From NCBI RefSeq assembly GCF_009936275.1, contig NZ_AP019797.1, forward strand, positions 363,501 to 427,500: a stretch of 64,000 nucleotides of DNA, given 5' to 3'. The translations under genes were made by a program, and so were the position numbers. The DNA is from Rhodothermus marinus. GTDB lineage: Bacteria; Bacteroidota; Rhodothermia; Rhodothermales; Rhodothermaceae. Shown piece by piece: positions 18,051 to 26,459 of this stretch; positions within the stretch are counted from its first letter, which is position 1, and every line of letters begins with the position of its first letter. The notes under the pieces are model-generated. The model did no database searches, was not told where the DNA came from, and worked only from the letters and a program-made list of their open reading frames with translations.

Positions 18051-21017
18051 ATGGCAACGGAAGTGCTACCGGATCTGGGCACGCACTTTCACGAGCCGGT
18101 CTCCTGGCACGTCTGGGACGCGAAGTACCGTTATCGTGAAGGCAACGTCGTGCGCGATCAGACGATTGAGGACACCTGGCGGCGGGTGGCCCGGGCGCTG
18201 GCGGCTGCCGAACCGGAATCGGAGCGGGCGCGCTGGGCCGAACGCTTTTACCGGGTACTCTACGGATTCAAGTTTCTGCCGGGCGGGCGCATCCTGGCCG
18301 GTGCCGGCACGCGCCACCGCGTGACGCTCTTCAACTGCTTCGTGATGGGCATCATTGAGGACTCGCTCGACGGCATCTTCGATAGTCTCAAAGAAGGGGC
18401 GTTGACCATGCAGCAGGGCGGGGGCGTGGGCTACGACTTTTCGACGCTGCGGCCGGCCGGCACGCGGGCGCGCACGACGGGTACGATCGCCTCGGGGCCG
18501 GTTTCGTTTATGCACATCTGGGACGCCATGTGCGCCACGCTGCTTTCGACGGGCGCGCGGCGCGGCGCCATGATGGCCACGCTCCGGTGCGACCACCCCG
18601 ACATCGAAACCTTCGTCACGGCCAAGCACCGGCCCGGCGTGCTCACGCACTTCAACCTGTCGGTGCAGGTCTTCGATGAGTTCATGGAGGCCGTGCGGCG
18701 CGACGCCGACTGGCCGCTGGTCTTTCCGGCCGCCGCGCTGGAGGACGAAGGCATGGGCGACGGGCCGATCGTGTACCGGCGCTGGACGGGCACCGACGGT
18801 CCTGTGCCCTGCCGCGTGCTCCGGGTGGTGAAGGCGCGGGCACTCTGGGAGCAGATCCTGCGCTCTACCTACGACTACGCCGAGCCCGGCGTGCTCTTCA
18901 TCGACACGATCAACCGGATGAACAACCTCGCCTACCGCGAGCACATCACCGCGACGAACCCCTGTGTGACAGCAGACACGTGGATTCACACTTCTATGGG
19001 GCCACGTCGTGTGGCTGATTTGATAGGTCAACCATTTTTTGCCCGGGTCAACGGTCAGGATTACATGTGTCCTAAAGGATTTTTTGCCACAGGTGTTAAA
19101 AAAGTATATCGATTAGAAACACTGGAAGGTTATAATCTTCGCTTAACTGAAGATCATCCTGTACTTCGAGTTCGTAAGCGAACTCGCTGGAGTACTACAA
19201 CAGAATGGATTCCTGTTAAATATCTCCAAATAGGAGATGGGGTTGTGTTAAATAATCATCGAGGATGTTTTGAATGGCCTGGGGAAGGTTCTGAAGAAGA
19301 AGGGTATTTACTTGGATTATTAGTAGGAGATGGAACACTTAAGAAAGACAAAGCTGTACTTTCAGTATGGACTAACAATGATTCGATAGAAAGTTTAAGT
19401 ACAATGATGGCATATGCTGAATCAGCTGTTCGAAGTTTTCCTCACCGTAAAGATTTTCGTGGCTGGATAGCCATTCCAGAACGTGGCGAATATCGATTGG
19501 CAACTGCTTCATTGCGTTCTCTTGCTTATCGTTTTGGTCTTCGACCTGGCGCAAAGATAATAACTTCGAAAATAGAAAAAGCTTCTTCTGATTTTTACAA
19601 GGGATTTTTGCGTGGACTATTTGATGCAGATGGCAGTGTACAAGGATCGCATTTTAAAGGGATTAGTATTCGACTTGCGCAAAGTAATTTAGAAATTCTA
19701 AGAGCAGTACAACGTATGTTATTGCGTTTGGGGATTGTTGCTAAAATCTATTCTAACAGAAGGCCCTCTGGCAAATATTACTTACCAGATGGTAAAGGAG
19801 GAGTTCGACTATACCATTGTAGAGCACAATATGAATTAGTAATTTCAAAAGATAATTTGCAGATATTTGCAGAAAGAATAGGGTTTTCACATTATGAAAA
19901 GGCAAAAAAGCTAAAAGAAGCTTTGCAAAGCTATAAACGCTCACTGAACAAAGAAGTATTCATTGCCCGAATAGCCCGCGTCAAGTTTGAGGGTTATGAA
20001 ACTGTATATGATGCATGTGTGCCTGGAATCAATGCTTTTGATGCAAATGGTTTTGTTGTGCATAACTGTGGCGAGCAGCCGCTGCCGCCCTACGGGGCCT
20101 GCGACCTGGGTTCGATCAACCTGACGCGCTTCGTGCGGGCGCCCTTTACGCCCGAAGCCGATCTCGACTGGGAGGGGATCCGGGAGACCGTCGCCGTAGC
20201 CGTGCGCATGCTCGACAACGTGATCGACGTGTCGGGCTTTCCGCTGCCGGCCCAGGCCGAGCAGGCCCGCGGCACCCGGCGTATCGGGCTGGGCATTACC
20301 GGACTGGCCGACGCGCTGATCATGCTGGGCCTGCACTATGCCTCGGAGGAGGCGCGCCAGCTGGCCGCCCGCGTCATGCAGACGATCTGCCACACGGCCT
20401 ACCGGACGTCCATTGCACTGGCCCGCGAAAAAGGCGTCTTCCCCTTCTTCGAGCGGGAGCGTTATCTGGAAAGCCCCTTCATTCAGGCGCTCCCCGAAGA
20501 CATTCGCAAAGGCATCGCCACCTACGGGATCCGGAACAGCCACCTGCTTTCGATCGCGCCCACAGGGACGATCAGCCTGCTGGCCAACAACGTGTCGAGC
20601 GGCATCGAGCCCGTCTTTGCCTATCGCTACACGCGCTACATTCTGGGACTTGATGGCGAGCGGCGGGCCTACACGCTCACCGACTACGCCCTGCGGTTGT
20701 GGCAACGGCTGCACGGCGACAGCGAGATGCTTCCCGAGGCGTTCGTCGATGCCCAGCACCTGGACCCCTACGATCACCTGAAGATGCAGGCAGCCCTGCA
20801 GCCCTACGTGGACGGGGCCATTTCAAAGACGGTGAACGTGCCGGCCGACACGCCCTTCAGTGCCTTCCGCCAGCTCTACGACTGGGCCTACGATCACGGC
20901 CTGAAAGGGTGCACCACGTACCGGCCCAGCCCGGTCCGGGGCGCCGTGCTGGAAGCCGTCACCGCCGGCGTGGCCGAAAGCACGCACTGCTGCAGCATCG
21001 AGCGCGAGGCCGACTGA
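18051..21017 (+). CDS. nrdJ: Adenosylcobalamin-dependent (class II) ribonucleotide reductase containing an intein
   Basis: The precursor is 988 residues: an N-extein (1-304), an intein (305-672) and a C-extein (673-988), leaving a mature enzyme of about 620 residues. The mature protein reduces ribonucleotides using a radical generated from adenosylcobalamin. Active-site features include Cys96 in LFNCFVMG and the NPCGE motif, where the radical-forming cysteine is residue 673, immediately after the intein. Other family stretches are LSTGARRGAMMATLRCDHPDIETF and SIAPTGTISLLANN. The C-terminus has a Cys-Cys pair (STHCCSIE) that may serve disulfide exchange. I see no N-terminal ATP-cone. AGGAG lies before ATG 18051. 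Confidence 0.95.
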   Translation: MATEVLPDLGTHFHEPVSWHVWDAKYRYREGNVVRDQTIEDTWRRVARALAAAEPESERARWAERFYRVLYGFKFLPGGRILAGAGTRHRVTLFNCFVMGIIEDSLDGIFDSLKEGALTMQQGGGVGYDFSTLRPAGTRARTTGTIASGPVSFMHIWDAMCATLLSTGARRGAMMATLRCDHPDIETFVTAKHRPGVLTHFNLSVQVFDEFMEAVRRDADWPLVFPAAALEDEGMGDGPIVYRRWTGTDGPVPCRVLRVVKARALWEQILRSTYDYAEPGVLFIDTINRMNNLAYREHITATNPCVTADTWIHTSMGPRRVADLIGQPFFARVNGQDYMCPKGFFATGVKKVYRLETLEGYNLRLTEDHPVLRVRKRTRWSTTTEWIPVKYLQIGDGVVLNNHRGCFEWPGEGSEEEGYLLGLLVGDGTLKKDKAVLSVWTNNDSIESLSTMMAYAESAVRSFPHRKDFRGWIAIPERGEYRLATASLRSLAYRFGLRPGAKIITSKIEKASSDFYKGFLRGLFDADGSVQGSHFKGISIRLAQSNLEILRAVQRMLLRLGIVAKIYSNRRPSGKYYLPDGKGGVRLYHCRAQYELVISKDNLQIFAERIGFSHYEKAKKLKEALQSYKRSLNKEVFIARIARVKFEGYETVYDACVPGINAFDANGFVVHNCGEQPLPPYGACDLGSINLTRFVRAPFTPEADLDWEGIRETVAVAVRMLDNVIDVSGFPLPAQAEQARGTRRIGLGITGLADALIMLGLHYASEEARQLAARVMQTICHTAYRTSIALAREKGVFPFFERERYLESPFIQALPEDIRKGIATYGIRNSHLLSIAPTGTISLLANNVSSGIEPVFAYRYTRYILGLDGERRAYTLTDYALRLWQRLHGDSEMLPEAFVDAQHLDPYDHLKMQAALQPYVDGAISKTVNVPADTPFSAFRQLYDWAYDHGLKGCTTYRPSPVRGAVLEAVTAGVAESTHCCSIEREAD
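18963..20066 (+). mobile_element. Intein with LAGLIDADG homing endonuclease inside nrdJ
   Basis: The element of 368 codons begins with Cys305 (CVTADTWIHTSMG, block A) and ends FDANGFVVHN before extein Cys673 (block F/G). Block B is RLTEDHPVL with the expected T-x-x-H. Two dodecapeptide motifs are intact: YLLGLLVGDGTL and LRGLFDADGSVQ, each with its catalytic Asp, so both splicing and homing look functional. Base composition drops sharply to roughly 40% GC by eye against about 65% in the exteins, with boundaries that match the protein junctions. This shows lateral acquisition. The insertion point, just before the catalytic cysteine of NPC-GE, is a known kind of RNR insertion site. Confidence 0.95.
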
Positions 21018-21111: not shown

Positions 21112-24100
21112 TCAGCTTTCAGGGAAGCCGGCCGGCTTCGGTTCCGAGTCGGTCCGGGCAAAGGTGAAGCGGGTGACGAGCTGGCGGAGGCTTTCCATAC
21201 GCTCGGTCAATTGCTCCATGGCGGCGGCGATCGACGTGTTGCCGGCGGCCGCCTGTTCCGTGACCTGTGCGATGGCTTCGACATTTTCGCTGATGTGCTG
21301 GATGGTGGCCGCCTGCTCTTCGCCGCTTGTGGCCACCTGGGCAATCCGTTCCTGCACCTGGCGGGAGCGTGCGATGATTTCTTCCAGCAGCGTGCCCACC
21401 TGATCGACGCGTGCCCGGCCGGTATCTACTTCCTGGTTGACCCGGGCCATGGCGGTCACGGCGCGGGACGTATCGTGCCGGATGCGGGTGGTCATCTGTT
21501 CGATTTCTTTCGTGGCGGCCGCCGTGCGCTCGGCCAGTTTGCGTACTTCGTCGGCCACGACGGCAAAGCCGCGACCCTGCTCACCGGCCCGGGCCGCTTC
21601 GATGGCGGCGTTCAGCGCCAGCAGGTTCGTCTGATCGGCGATCTCGTCGATGATGCGGGCCATTTCGCCGATTTTCTGGCTGCTTTCGTCCAGCGCCTGA
21701 ATGATGGCCGACGAGCGGGCTACCGCTTCGGCCACGTCGTTCATGCGGCCCACGGCGTCCCGGGCCACCTGGCCGCCTTCTTCTGCCTGTCGCAGGGACT
21801 GCTCGGCCAGTTCGGCCACGTGGCTCAGATTGCGGGTGGCCTCCGAGATCGTACGGGCCATTGCTTCGATGGCCTCGGCCACCTCGCCGGTTTGCCGGGT
21901 GAGCTGTTGCACCCCGGAGGCCAGTTCGCCGGAGTTCCGGTAGATTTCCCTGCTGGTGTCGGCCGTGGCCCGAATGACCGAGGCGACTTCCCGAAGGATG
22001 GCCTGCATGTTGGCCACGGCCCGGTTGAACCCGGTAAACAGGCGGCCGATGGCGTCGTCCTGCATGGCCGTGAGCGTGACGGTCAGATCGCCCTGCGAAA
22101 ACCGCTCCATGGCTTCCAGAATCCGGAGTACGCTCTGCTCCAGATACTCCTGCTGCTGCTGGAGTTGCTCGCGGGCGCGGCGGTCGTGCTCGGCCGCCTC
22201 TTCGCGGGCCCGGCGTTTTTCTCGCTCAGCCTCGGCGGCATGGCGCATTTCGGCTTCGAGCCGCCGGTTGATGGCCTCCAGTTCGGCATTGATGGCTTCC
22301 TGGCGTTTGCGGCGACGACGTTCCCGATGGACGACCCCGACCACCGCACCCACCAGCGCCAGACCCACCAGCAATCGGAACCACCAGGTCGCCCAGAAAG
22401 GCGGCGTAATGACGATGTGCAGCGTGGCGGGACGGGTGCTCCAGACGCCGTCGTTGTTCGTGCCGCGTACGAGCAGGACGTACTCGCCCGGATCCAGGTT
22501 GCTGTAGGTGGCCGTTCGCTGTGTGCTTACCTCGTTCCAGTCCAGGTCGAAGCCTTCGAGCTTGTATGCGTAGCGGTTCTTCGAGGGCGCCGTAAAGTCC
22601 AGTGCTGCAAACTCGAACGTCAGCACGTTCTGCCAGTGGGCCAGCGTGAGCGTGCGGGTGACGCTGATGTGCGCCTTTAGCGGGCTGTCTTTGGTGCCGA
22701 CGCGCACTGGCTGGTTGAAGAGCCGGAAGTCGGTCAACACCACGGGAGGTGGGGTCGTGTTGGGCTCGAAGCGATCCGGGTAGATGACGTTGAAGCCGTT
22801 GAAACCGCCGAAATAGAGGGATCCGTCCCGCGCCGTGTAGTCGGCAAAGCGATTGAACTCGTTGCCCTGCAGCCCGTCGGCTTTCGTGTACAGGGTGCAG
22901 GTTTTTTCCTGCACGTTGTAGCGGCAGAGGCCCCGGTTGGTGGCCACCCAGAGAAAGCCCTGGCGGTCGCGTGCCAGGCCCACGATCGTATTGCTGGGCA
23001 GGCCATCTTCGCGGAAGAAGCGCGTCACGGTGCCGGTCTGTCGATCGATCCGGTTGAGGCCGTACTGCGTGCCCACCCAGAGCGTGTGGGCATCGGCGAC
23101 CAGGATCGAAAGCACGCTGTTGTTGCTCAGGCTGTTGGAACTGGAAGGATCGTGGCGGTAGTTGGTGAACGTCTCGGTGCGCGGGTCGAAGACAATCACG
23201 CCCGCGTCCTGCGTGGCCAGTACGAGGCGTCCCTCCGGGTCGTGCCCCATGCGAAGAATCTGATTGCTGCGCAGCGCACTGTTTTCCGGGGTGTAGACCT
23301 TGCGCTGACGGGTGTTCAGGTCGATCCGTACCAGGCCTCCGAGGAAGTTGGCCACCCAGAGCCGGTTCTGCGCATCCACCAGCGCATCGAACACATGGGG
23401 CGTGAGCAGCATGCCGTTCTGGTCATTGAAAAACTCCAGGAAGCGCCCCTGTCGGGGGCTGAAGCGGCCGATGCCGCCGGCCCAGCCGCCGACCCAGAGG
23501 TAGCCGTCCGCATCGGTGGCCATGGCGAAGACCGCATCGGTGCGGGCGTTGGTGTTGGCCATGCTGTAGCCGTAGAAGCGACCGGTGCGACGGTCGAAGC
23601 GATGGAAGCCGCCGCCGTCGGTGGCCACCCAGAGGTTGCCCTGCGGGTCTTCGTAGAAGCGGCTGACGGCGTTGGCGTTCAGGCTGTAGGGATCGCCGGG
23701 CACGCTGCGGTAATGTTCGATGGCCTGGCTGTTGCGCTTGAGCACGTTCAGGCCCCCGGCAAACGTGCCGAACCACAGGTTGCCGGTGCGGTCCTGATAG
23801 ATGGCCCAGATCGATTCGTTGTTCAGGCTGTTCGGATCGGTGCGGCTGTGGCGATGGTGCCGGAACGTTTCGGTGCGGTAGTCGAACAGGTCCAGTCCGC
23901 CGTTTTCGGTGCCGACCCACAGGCGCCCTTCACGATCCACGTAGAGCACGCGCACCCGGTCGATGGCCAGGCTGCGCGGGTTGTGCGGATCGTGCCGGTA
24001 GCGTTTGAAGCCCTGCGCGATGTGGTCCAGATCGAGCCGGCCCAGGCCACCGCCGTCGGTCGATACCCAGAGATGGCCGTGCGCATCTTCCACCAGGTCG

Positions 24101-24783
24101 AAGAGCACGTTGTGCGGCAGGCTGCGTGGATCGCGGGGATCATGGCGGAAGTGCTCGAAGACGCCCGTGGCGGGATCGAAGCGGTCCAACCCCCCGGCCG
24201 TAGCCACCCAGAAGTTGCCCCGGCTGTCGATCAGCAACGCGCGCACGTCGGCGTGGCTCAGGCCGGTGGGACTTTCAGGATCGGCTGCGTAGTGCGCGAA
24301 GGCTTCACGCTTCGGATCGAAACGGTACAGTCCGTTCGTACTGGCTACCCAGAGGGAGCCCCGCGCATCTTCGATCAGGTCCTGTACGGCACCGCCCTGA
24401 AAGCCCGTGCCGTCGCCGGCCCGGTAGTTACGAAAAGCGTCCTGCGCTGGCAGGTAGCGGCTGAGGCCGGCGTCGGTCCCTACCCACAGGGTACCGCGGC
24501 GATCGACATACAGGCAGCGGATGTAGCTGTTGGCGATGCTGGTCGAATCGCGCGGATCGTGCTCGTAGAGTGTGAAGCGATAGCCGTCGTAGCGGTTGAG
24601 TCCGCCGGCCGTCCCGATCCAGAGAAAGCCCGGCGAATCCTGCGTGATGGCCGTTACCCACGAACGCGAAAGCCCGTCGTCGCTGGTCAGATGCGTAAAC
24701 CGAAGCCGTTGCGCCAGCACCGGGGTGCTCAGGACGCCGGCCAGTAGCACGATTGCTGCAATTCTACGACCCATTGAACGCAT
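21112..24783 (-). CDS. Propeller-Y_Y_Y sensor fused to a methyl-accepting chemotaxis output
   Basis: The 1223-residue protein has a signal peptide (residues 1-24), then two-component-regulator propeller repeats at about 25-690 in the pattern LWVGTxxGLxRYD, a Y_Y_Y domain at about 725-785 ([25 protein letters not shown]), one transmembrane segment at about 799-818, a charged coiled coil to about 885, a HAMP-like segment ([13 protein letters not shown]), and a receptor signalling domain at 935-1205. The hairpin tip at 1044-1078 has the canonical [20 protein letters not shown] and [10 protein letters not shown]. In Bacteroidota this sensor architecture normally ends in a histidine kinase, so the receptor output is atypical. 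No CheA, CheW, CheB or CheR gene lies in the window. It may sense glycans, as hybrid sensors do. Confidence 0.9.
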
Positions 24784-25007
24784 GCATTCAGGACACTGGA
24801 AGGATTCAAGTACGCAAGCCTACGGATCTACTATCGACTAAAAAATGCAGACATTTAGCGCATTTAGCGTAATGTTCAATCATGAGAGAAAATTAAATCG
24901 ATTCAATTTGTGACTTTACTTTCAAAGCAGAGCATTAACCACGGCGTCTTGCATTTGAAAAGCATACTGGTTAAATATTTGTGAAGCAAAACGCAAGACA
25001 ACGAGCC
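24784..25007. other. AT-rich divergent intergenic region
   Basis: The gap between the divergent chemoreceptor-like and amidohydrolase genes is clearly richer in A and T than its neighbours. It contains the tandem 9-mer CATTTAGCG twice in a row (24852-24869). It probably holds promoters for both genes; I could not assign a convincing -35/-10 pair. Confidence 0.45.
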
Positions 25008-26459
25008 ATGCGACGCTACGGAATTGTCTGGGCACTGCTGCTGGCGTTGAGCGCGTCGGCGGCAGCAGGTCAGGATCTGGCCGCCTACAAGCAGGAGGCG
25101 CTGCAGGAAACGGAGCAGCTCCGAGAAACACTCCGGCACCTGGCACAGGAACTCTGGCGCTATGCCGAGACGGCGCTTCAGGAGCAGCGCTCGGCCGCCT
25201 TGCTGGCCGATGCGCTGGAGGCCGAAGGCTTTCGGGTGCAGCGGGGCGTGGCCGGCATGCCGACGGCCTTCATCGCCGAGTGGGGGAGCGGTCGGCCCAT
25301 CATCGGCATTCTGGCGGAGTACGACGCACTGCCCGGGGTGGGGAATGCGCCCGTCCCGGAACGCCATCCCAGAGAGGATGAGGTCAGCAGCGGACACGGC
25401 TGCGGGCACAACCTGTTCGGGGCCGCTTCCACCGTGGGAGCGATCGTGCTGAAGCGCATGATGGAGCGTCACCGGATCCCCGGCACGGTCCGACTCTACG
25501 GGACGCCCGCCGAAGAGACGGTGGTGGGCAAGGTGTACATGGCGCGTGCGGGCGTTTTCGATGATCTGGACGCGGCCATCGAGTGGCACCCGGGCACGGA
25601 GACGGCCGTGCGCAACCAGCCGGGGCGGGCCATGAACAACTTCATCGTGCGGTTCTACGGGCAGGCGGCCCACGCCTCGGCCGACCCCTGGAACGGCCGC
25701 AGCGCCCTCGACGCCGTCGAGCTGATGAACCACGCGGCCAACATGATGCGGGAGCACGTGCACCCCACCGCCCGGATCCACTACGTGATCACCGATGGCG
25801 GCGAGGCCCCCAACGTGGTGCCGGAACGCGCCGAGGTCTGGTATTATGTGCGCGACATCAACCGGGAGCGCGTCGAGTTCATGTACGAATGGCTGAAAAA
25901 GATCGCCGAAGGGGCGGCCCTGATGACGCGTACGGAGTACGAGATCGAGTTCATTACCGGCGTGCATGAAGTGCTGCTGAACCGGCCGCTGCAGGAAGCG
26001 GTGCAGGCCAACCTGGAGCTGGTGGGGCCGCCGCAGTTCGACGCGCAGGAGCAGCAGTTCGCCCGCCGTCTGCAGGAATTCCTGAAGATCGAACCGGTCG
26101 GGCTGGATACGACGATCAAGCCCCTGCCGGAAGGGCCGGAGCCGCCCAGCGGGGGATCGACCGATGTGGCCGAAGTGAGCTGGATCACGCCGACGGTGGG
26201 CTTTACGGTGGCGACGGCGGCCAAGGATGTGCCCTGGCATAGCTGGGCCACGACGGCCTGCCACGGTACGTCCATCGGCTACAAAGGGGCTGAGGTAGCC
26301 GCCAGGGTCATTGCGACGACCGGCCTGGACATGCTGCTGCGCCCCGAGCTGCTGGAAGCCGCCCGGGAGGAGTTTCTTCGCCTGACCGGCGGCAAGCCCT
26401 ATCAATCGCCGCTGCCGCTCGATCAGCCGCCGCCTCTGCCGTCCCGCACCGACCGTTAA
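25008..26459 (+). CDS. M20-family amidohydrolase (AbgB-like), exported
   Basis: The product of about 483 residues has a signal peptide (MRRYGIVWALLLALSASAAAGQ), so it acts in the periplasm or outside. M20 zinc-peptidase features include GILAEYDALPG, SGHGCGHNLFGAAS, a Glu pair in GTPAEETVVGK, AIEWHPG, and a late THCHGTSIG-like stretch, TACHGTSIGYKGA. The dimerisation domain contains RFYGQAAHASADPWNGRSALDAV. Overall it resembles AbgB and related p-aminobenzoyl-glutamate or amino-acid amide hydrolases, but substrate cannot be read from sequence. GTG 24981 would extend the N-terminus by nine residues; ATG 25008 fits the signal peptide better. Confidence 0.92.
   Translation: MRRYGIVWALLLALSASAAAGQDLAAYKQEALQETEQLRETLRHLAQELWRYAETALQEQRSAALLADALEAEGFRVQRGVAGMPTAFIAEWGSGRPIIGILAEYDALPGVGNAPVPERHPREDEVSSGHGCGHNLFGAASTVGAIVLKRMMERHRIPGTVRLYGTPAEETVVGKVYMARAGVFDDLDAAIEWHPGTETAVRNQPGRAMNNFIVRFYGQAAHASADPWNGRSALDAVELMNHAANMMREHVHPTARIHYVITDGGEAPNVVPERAEVWYYVRDINRERVEFMYEWLKKIAEGAALMTRTEYEIEFITGVHEVLLNRPLQEAVQANLELVGPPQFDAQEQQFARRLQEFLKIEPVGLDTTIKPLPEGPEPPSGGSTDVAEVSWITPTVGFTVATAAKDVPWHSWATTACHGTSIGYKGAEVAARVIATTGLDMLLRPELLEAAREEFLRLTGGKPYQSPLPLDQPPPLPSRTDR

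Follow-up and report, generated by a model that had tools for sequence, protein, structure and literature searches.

A Reg_prop/Y_Y_Y sensor of the BT4663 type joined to a chemoreceptor signalling domain in Rhodothermus marinus

For the sensory half of the protein described here, the closest characterized system is BT4663 of Bacteroides thetaiotaomicron (PDB 4a2l/4a2m), in which a periplasmic double propeller with a Y_Y_Y domain is followed by one membrane helix and by an output composed of HisKA, HATPase, receiver and DNA-binding domains. For the signalling half it is the aromatic-acid chemoreceptor PcaY_PP of Pseudomonas putida (PDB 6s18), whose ligand domain has another fold and lies between two membrane helices. 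Kinase sensors have also been placed on working chemoreceptor tails: a NarX-Tar chimera, cited in PMC3404733, is reported to mediate chemotaxis to nitrate, although that chimera was made in the laboratory and carries a small four-helix sensor. Both halves and the principle of MCP sensor swapping are well known; what appears new, by the papers searched, is this sensor class on a chemoreceptor, since no description of a propeller/Y_Y_Y sensor on a chemoreceptor was found in them (subscription journals lay mostly outside the search).

A single open frame with a sensor and a chemoreceptor hairpin

The window, that is, the whole stretch of 64,000 nucleotides that was analysed, contains on its minus strand a gene at positions 21112-24783 (stop codon included) that reads as one open frame of 1223 amino acids with no internal stop, and this uninterrupted frame joins a glycan-type sensor to a full MCP signalling hairpin. 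The gene stands alone, with an intein-bearing ribonucleotide reductase (18051-21017, plus strand) ending towards it on one side and an M20 peptidase (24981-26459, plus strand) diverging from it on the other. In the reductase large subunit the intein, with a LAGLIDADG domain, occupies about aa 344-672, and the copy of the type strain, R. marinus DSM 4252, reads through without it.

Two stretches stand out as hydrophobic in the hydropathy profile of the protein, a signal peptide first and a membrane helix further on. The first, at about aa 8-26 and ending in TPVLAQ, marks a signal peptide of aa 1-24 with a predicted cleavage site (24712-24783, minus strand, as are all features of the gene). It is followed by the periplasmic sensor, a double beta-propeller plus Y_Y_Y (aa 25-795; 22399-24711), in which Pfam recognizes Reg_prop in eight stretches (1.8e-62) and, above its cut-off, a Y_Y_Y domain at aa 729-792 (1e-19; 22408-22599). 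The second hydrophobic stretch, with a hydropathy peak of 2.07 at aa 800-818, corresponds to a single transmembrane helix of about aa 800-821 (22321-22386), after which come a charged coiled coil (aa 822-881; 22141-22320), a degenerate HAMP (about aa 882-935; 21979-22140) and the MCP signalling domain (aa 936-1206; 21166-21978). Of the features of a hybrid two-component system (HTCS), the Reg_prop/Y_Y_Y periplasmic sensor is present, and the Pfam scan gave no match in this protein to HisKA, HATPase or Response_reg. The first-pass annotation had proposed a path through one membrane segment and a coiled coil into a HAMP-like segment and a chemoreceptor hairpin, and this layout was borne out by Pfam and hydropathy, with the HAMP scoring below cut-off.

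A frame error or misassembly that fused a sensor gene with an MCP gene has practically no chance of explaining this join and was rejected, because full-length homologues with the same join occur in two independently assembled Rhodothermus genomes, with 77% identity over aa 11-1208 in G001 and 96% over aa 1-1223 in the type strain (G004, whose plasmid MCP matches NC_013502), as well as in more distant taxa. The gene is absent from four of the seven Rhodothermus genomes.

Chemoreceptor tail, host pathway and promoter

By the features testable from sequence, the protein belongs to the MCP superfamily. The MCPsignal match lies downstream of residue 930, at aa 990-1175, and its 162 bits (1.3e-47) compare with a cut-off of 34.6. 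HAMP is not required of every MCP, and the HAMP match here (aa 885-927, E-value 0.008) reaches 16.9 bits, under the Pfam cut-off of 25; the call is supported because the segment aligns with the region around the above-cut-off HAMP of the sister receptor MCP612. At the hairpin tip, the region of CheA/CheW contact (aa 1045-1080; 21544-21651), the protein has the same letters as MCP612 and MCP639 of the same genome over a stretch of 33 residues, and 42 of 43 residues agree with both when the comparison is widened; the core is as in Tsr. Compared with Tsr, which belongs to the 36H class, the signalling domain has 28 extra residues, split between both arms, and it shows no net length change against PcaY_PP, so that it is consistent with class 40H as assigned from these two length comparisons. 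PcaY_PP has a HAMP and signalling domain of equal length (aa 892-1206 align with its residues 234-548, 2.8e-30), whereas in our protein the sensor lies between a signal peptide and a single membrane helix in place of two flanking helices. A search with the strict consensus [ASTG]2xx[EQ]2xx[ASTG]2 for methylation sites returned only one match in the tail, at aa 1151-1160 (21304-21333), which aligns with the Tsr segment ASASDEQSRG; other matches are loose.

As previously annotated, no che gene is present in the window, but this does not extend to the genome, which holds one CheA, one stand-alone CheW and one CheR. All three lie in one cluster (C1:915-933 kb) together with FliP, FliO, FliN, FliM, FliL, MotB, MotA, CheB, CheZ and CheY, a HEAT protein and two FlgE-like proteins, and the genome also encodes two flagellins and one flagellin-family protein adjoining a FlgK-like frame. 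Six places score as MCP over the cut-off, one of them split: a dCache-HAMP-MCP receptor is divided into two overlapping frames (G000:C1:2107405-2109734; L114 3406-5735), and its G001 homologue is a long single frame of 802 aa.

Upstream of the fusion gene we predict a promoter, TAAA-N15-GTCGATA (24832-24857, minus strand), whose -10 element ends 48 bases before the ATG and which, from the established consensus, we take to be of the sigma28 class. Across the 3.43-Mb genome, the form TAAA-N15-GYCGATA is matched exactly at 4 sites, one before the fusion gene, one before cheW and the remaining two before genes not clearly linked to motility, while sites matching at 10 of 11 positions precede a flagellin, motA and MCP663. 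The site before the fusion gene is kept in G004 (11/11) and in G001 (10/11).

The coding sequence itself is under purifying selection throughout: in comparisons with G001 and with G004, dN/dS is 0.08-0.18 (about 0.1) for the sensor, the linker and the tail, dS against G001 being near saturation. In the type strain, codon 100 of the fusion gene, in the early propeller, is an in-frame stop, and this copy is therefore probably inactive or a pseudogene.

This premature stop is one of the observations that would fit an MCP tail driving CheA for another output, such as surface motility or a second messenger, or a relic in a non-motile cell. Another is a published description of R. marinus R-10T as a non-motile strain in which flagella were not observed (PMC3035238). 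A third comes from other hosts of the fusion: FliG is matched in Rhodothermus and G042, and G040, G041, G043 and G044 carry the fusion and CheW with no FliG match, which excludes the usual flagellum as output in some hosts (among the four are several MAGs, whose sequences may have gaps). For Rhodothermus we nevertheless consider a non-flagellar output or relic unlikely, since the only CheA and CheW of the genome sit among fli and mot genes, the promoter type is common to flagellin and motA, and purifying selection acts on all parts of the gene. Preferred, then, is a receptor working through the flagellar chemotaxis pathway. It is an observation in its own right that a large flagellar and chemotaxis cluster (G000:C1:915000-933000), with flagellins at other loci, occurs in a genus of which the type strain has been described as lacking motility.

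Sensor fold, candidate ligand and proposed signalling

A phmmer search against the PDB matched aa 24-798 to BT4663 (4a2l, E 4.4e-121), and the AlphaFold model of the sensor has confidence of about 80-96 throughout; confidence is low for the cytoplasmic part, and statements on fold are confined to the sensor. With this model, Foldseek placed first 4a2m, the heparin/heparan-sulphate sensor (E 2.5e-71, TM 0.85 by target, 30% identity), followed by BT3049 and BT4673, with the PorZ propeller as a distant fold relative. The likeness to BT4663 thus covers the whole periplasmic part and the one membrane helix after it, and the two proteins differ in output. Homology at 30% identity suggests a glycan or other carbohydrate ligand, and the gene context does not allow the ligand to be guessed, because the neighbours examined include no gene for polysaccharide utilisation.

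That context is also a reason to take seriously a chemoreceptor whose propeller senses a peptide, a protein partner or the state of the envelope: none of the neighbours examined is a carbohydrate gene, the PorZ propeller is distantly related in fold, and the sensor family feeds kinases, SpoIIE, GGDEF-EAL and MCP outputs alike. The first-pass annotation had held that in Bacteroidota hybrid systems the propeller plus Y_Y_Y is nearly always linked to a histidine kinase; this needs amending, as the sensor is not bound to kinases and among its nearest relatives five have a SpoIIE phosphatase output and one a GGDEF-EAL output. In the Rhodothermus genome, the other Reg_prop proteins are two kinases and a third that is PorZ-like. 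A non-carbohydrate ligand is nonetheless the less probable case, though a substantial one, since the structure that fits best is that of a heparin/heparan-sulphate sensor, Rhodothermus and related bacteria break down polysaccharides, and several MCP and che genes of Roseithermus go up on xylan (PMC7409140).

We consider it probable that the product is a true transmembrane chemoreceptor with a BT4663-like sensory half that signals via the host's CheA, its carbohydrate ligand being suggested by homology. In the proposed mechanism, the face of the propeller would take up a ligand from the periplasm, probably an oligosaccharide, and binding would alter how the two Y_Y_Y domains of a dimer pack together, a movement that Lowe and colleagues reportedly proposed for BT4663 in 2012. 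This movement would travel along the single membrane helix and the coiled coil, reach the degenerate HAMP and from there the MCP hairpin, itself part of a presumed CheW/CheA array shared with the other MCPs of the genome. The hairpin would then set CheA activity and, through CheY-P, act on the flagellar switch, in whichever direction the response runs and in a cell presumed to be motile, and CheR and CheB would adapt the receptor by putative methylation of the EE pair around residue 1155. That a glycan-sensor module controls a chemotaxis-type output, as initially annotated, is therefore the best-supported reading as regards domains, tip, CheA/CheW set and promoter, while its glycan part would follow from homology at 30% identity. 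If so, a chemoreceptor carrying the best-studied polysaccharide-sensor fold would supply a concrete, testable receptor by which a probably sugar-like signal would steer the movement of a hot-spring bacterium.

Distribution and origin of the join

The Reg_prop/Y_Y_Y-MCP architecture is not unique to Rhodothermus. Among 80 relatives, scanned as one genome per species, five have an MCP tail, belonging to Gemmatimonadota (L008), an unplaced MAG (L009), Ignavibacteria (L012), a MAG labelled Rickettsiales (L019) and Marinoscillum (L022). Within the phylum, a junction profile, with both halves checked, found the fusion in at least 7 of 394 drawn genomes, a lower bound because three candidates per genome were scored. 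Some hosts carry further fused receptors (two different ones in G041, two in G043 with one in duplicate, three in Marinoscillum), and CheW is present in all fused hosts checked.

The position of the join can be read from a switch of identity along the Rhodothermus protein. Its nearest kinase-linked sensor, a Reg_prop/Y_Y_Y kinase of the same order (G033), shares 64-72% identity over aa 700-800; identity to it stays high as far as aa 800 and is lost by about 850, and identity to the local receptor MCP663 (G000:C1:2065973-2067073) starts at 844 and continues at 45% to the C-terminus, gap-free and with a tail length within 3 residues. MCP663 also has a promoter similar to that of the fusion gene but lacks the propeller sensor. 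The Rhodothermus protein therefore looks like a kinase-type sensor with its helix joined, at the start of the coiled coil (about aa 820-850), to a local MCP tail.

In the MCP tree, the fused tails group with their hosts' own MCPs, those of G041 together, those of G043 and G044 together, and that of L012 with G042, which indicates that the join was made or re-made repeatedly. One origin with a co-inherited tail, tested as a single clade of all fused MCP tails, was rejected (lnL difference 224, AU p 7e-8). The sensor tree, a quick search version with 44 rows, placed the Rhodothermus sensors as sister to the kinase-linked sensor of G033 and six fused proteins in one supported set; because this set also holds a kinase and a GGDEF-EAL protein, the tree does not distinguish the replacement of tails along a single old sensor lineage from fusions that occurred separately.

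These trees are compatible with a recurrent class of natural chimeric chemoreceptors, in which a Bacteroidota HTCS glycan sensor was repeatedly spliced onto the host's existing MCP tail to yield dedicated oligosaccharide receptors, serving chemotaxis in flagellated lineages (Rhodothermus, the Ignavibacteria MAG) and flagellum-free motility elsewhere (Marinoscillum), a generalization for and against which we find the balance even. One sensor moved repeatedly onto local tails would be a natural counterpart of the laboratory kinase-chemoreceptor chimeras, and such repeated transfer suggests that the transmembrane signal of this sensor is readable by kinases, phosphatases, cyclic-di-GMP enzymes and chemoreceptors.

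Three further observations were made in the genomes surveyed. Marinoscillum pacificum (G044) combines a rich chemosensory set, with 17 MCP and 7 CheW matches, with the lack of a FliG match and so of a recognizable flagellar switch. Of the six loci L014, L016, L021, L026, L027 and L024, the five with SpoIIE-linked Reg_prop/Y_Y_Y sensors belong to Acidobacteriota and Aminicenantes, and the GGDEF-EAL one to Gemmatimonadaceae. Finally, both fused receptors of G041 (at L009 11394-13991 and L178, second frame) adjoin another Reg_prop/Y_Y_Y frame, of which the one in L009 runs off the contig, and these neighbours may be paired receptors.
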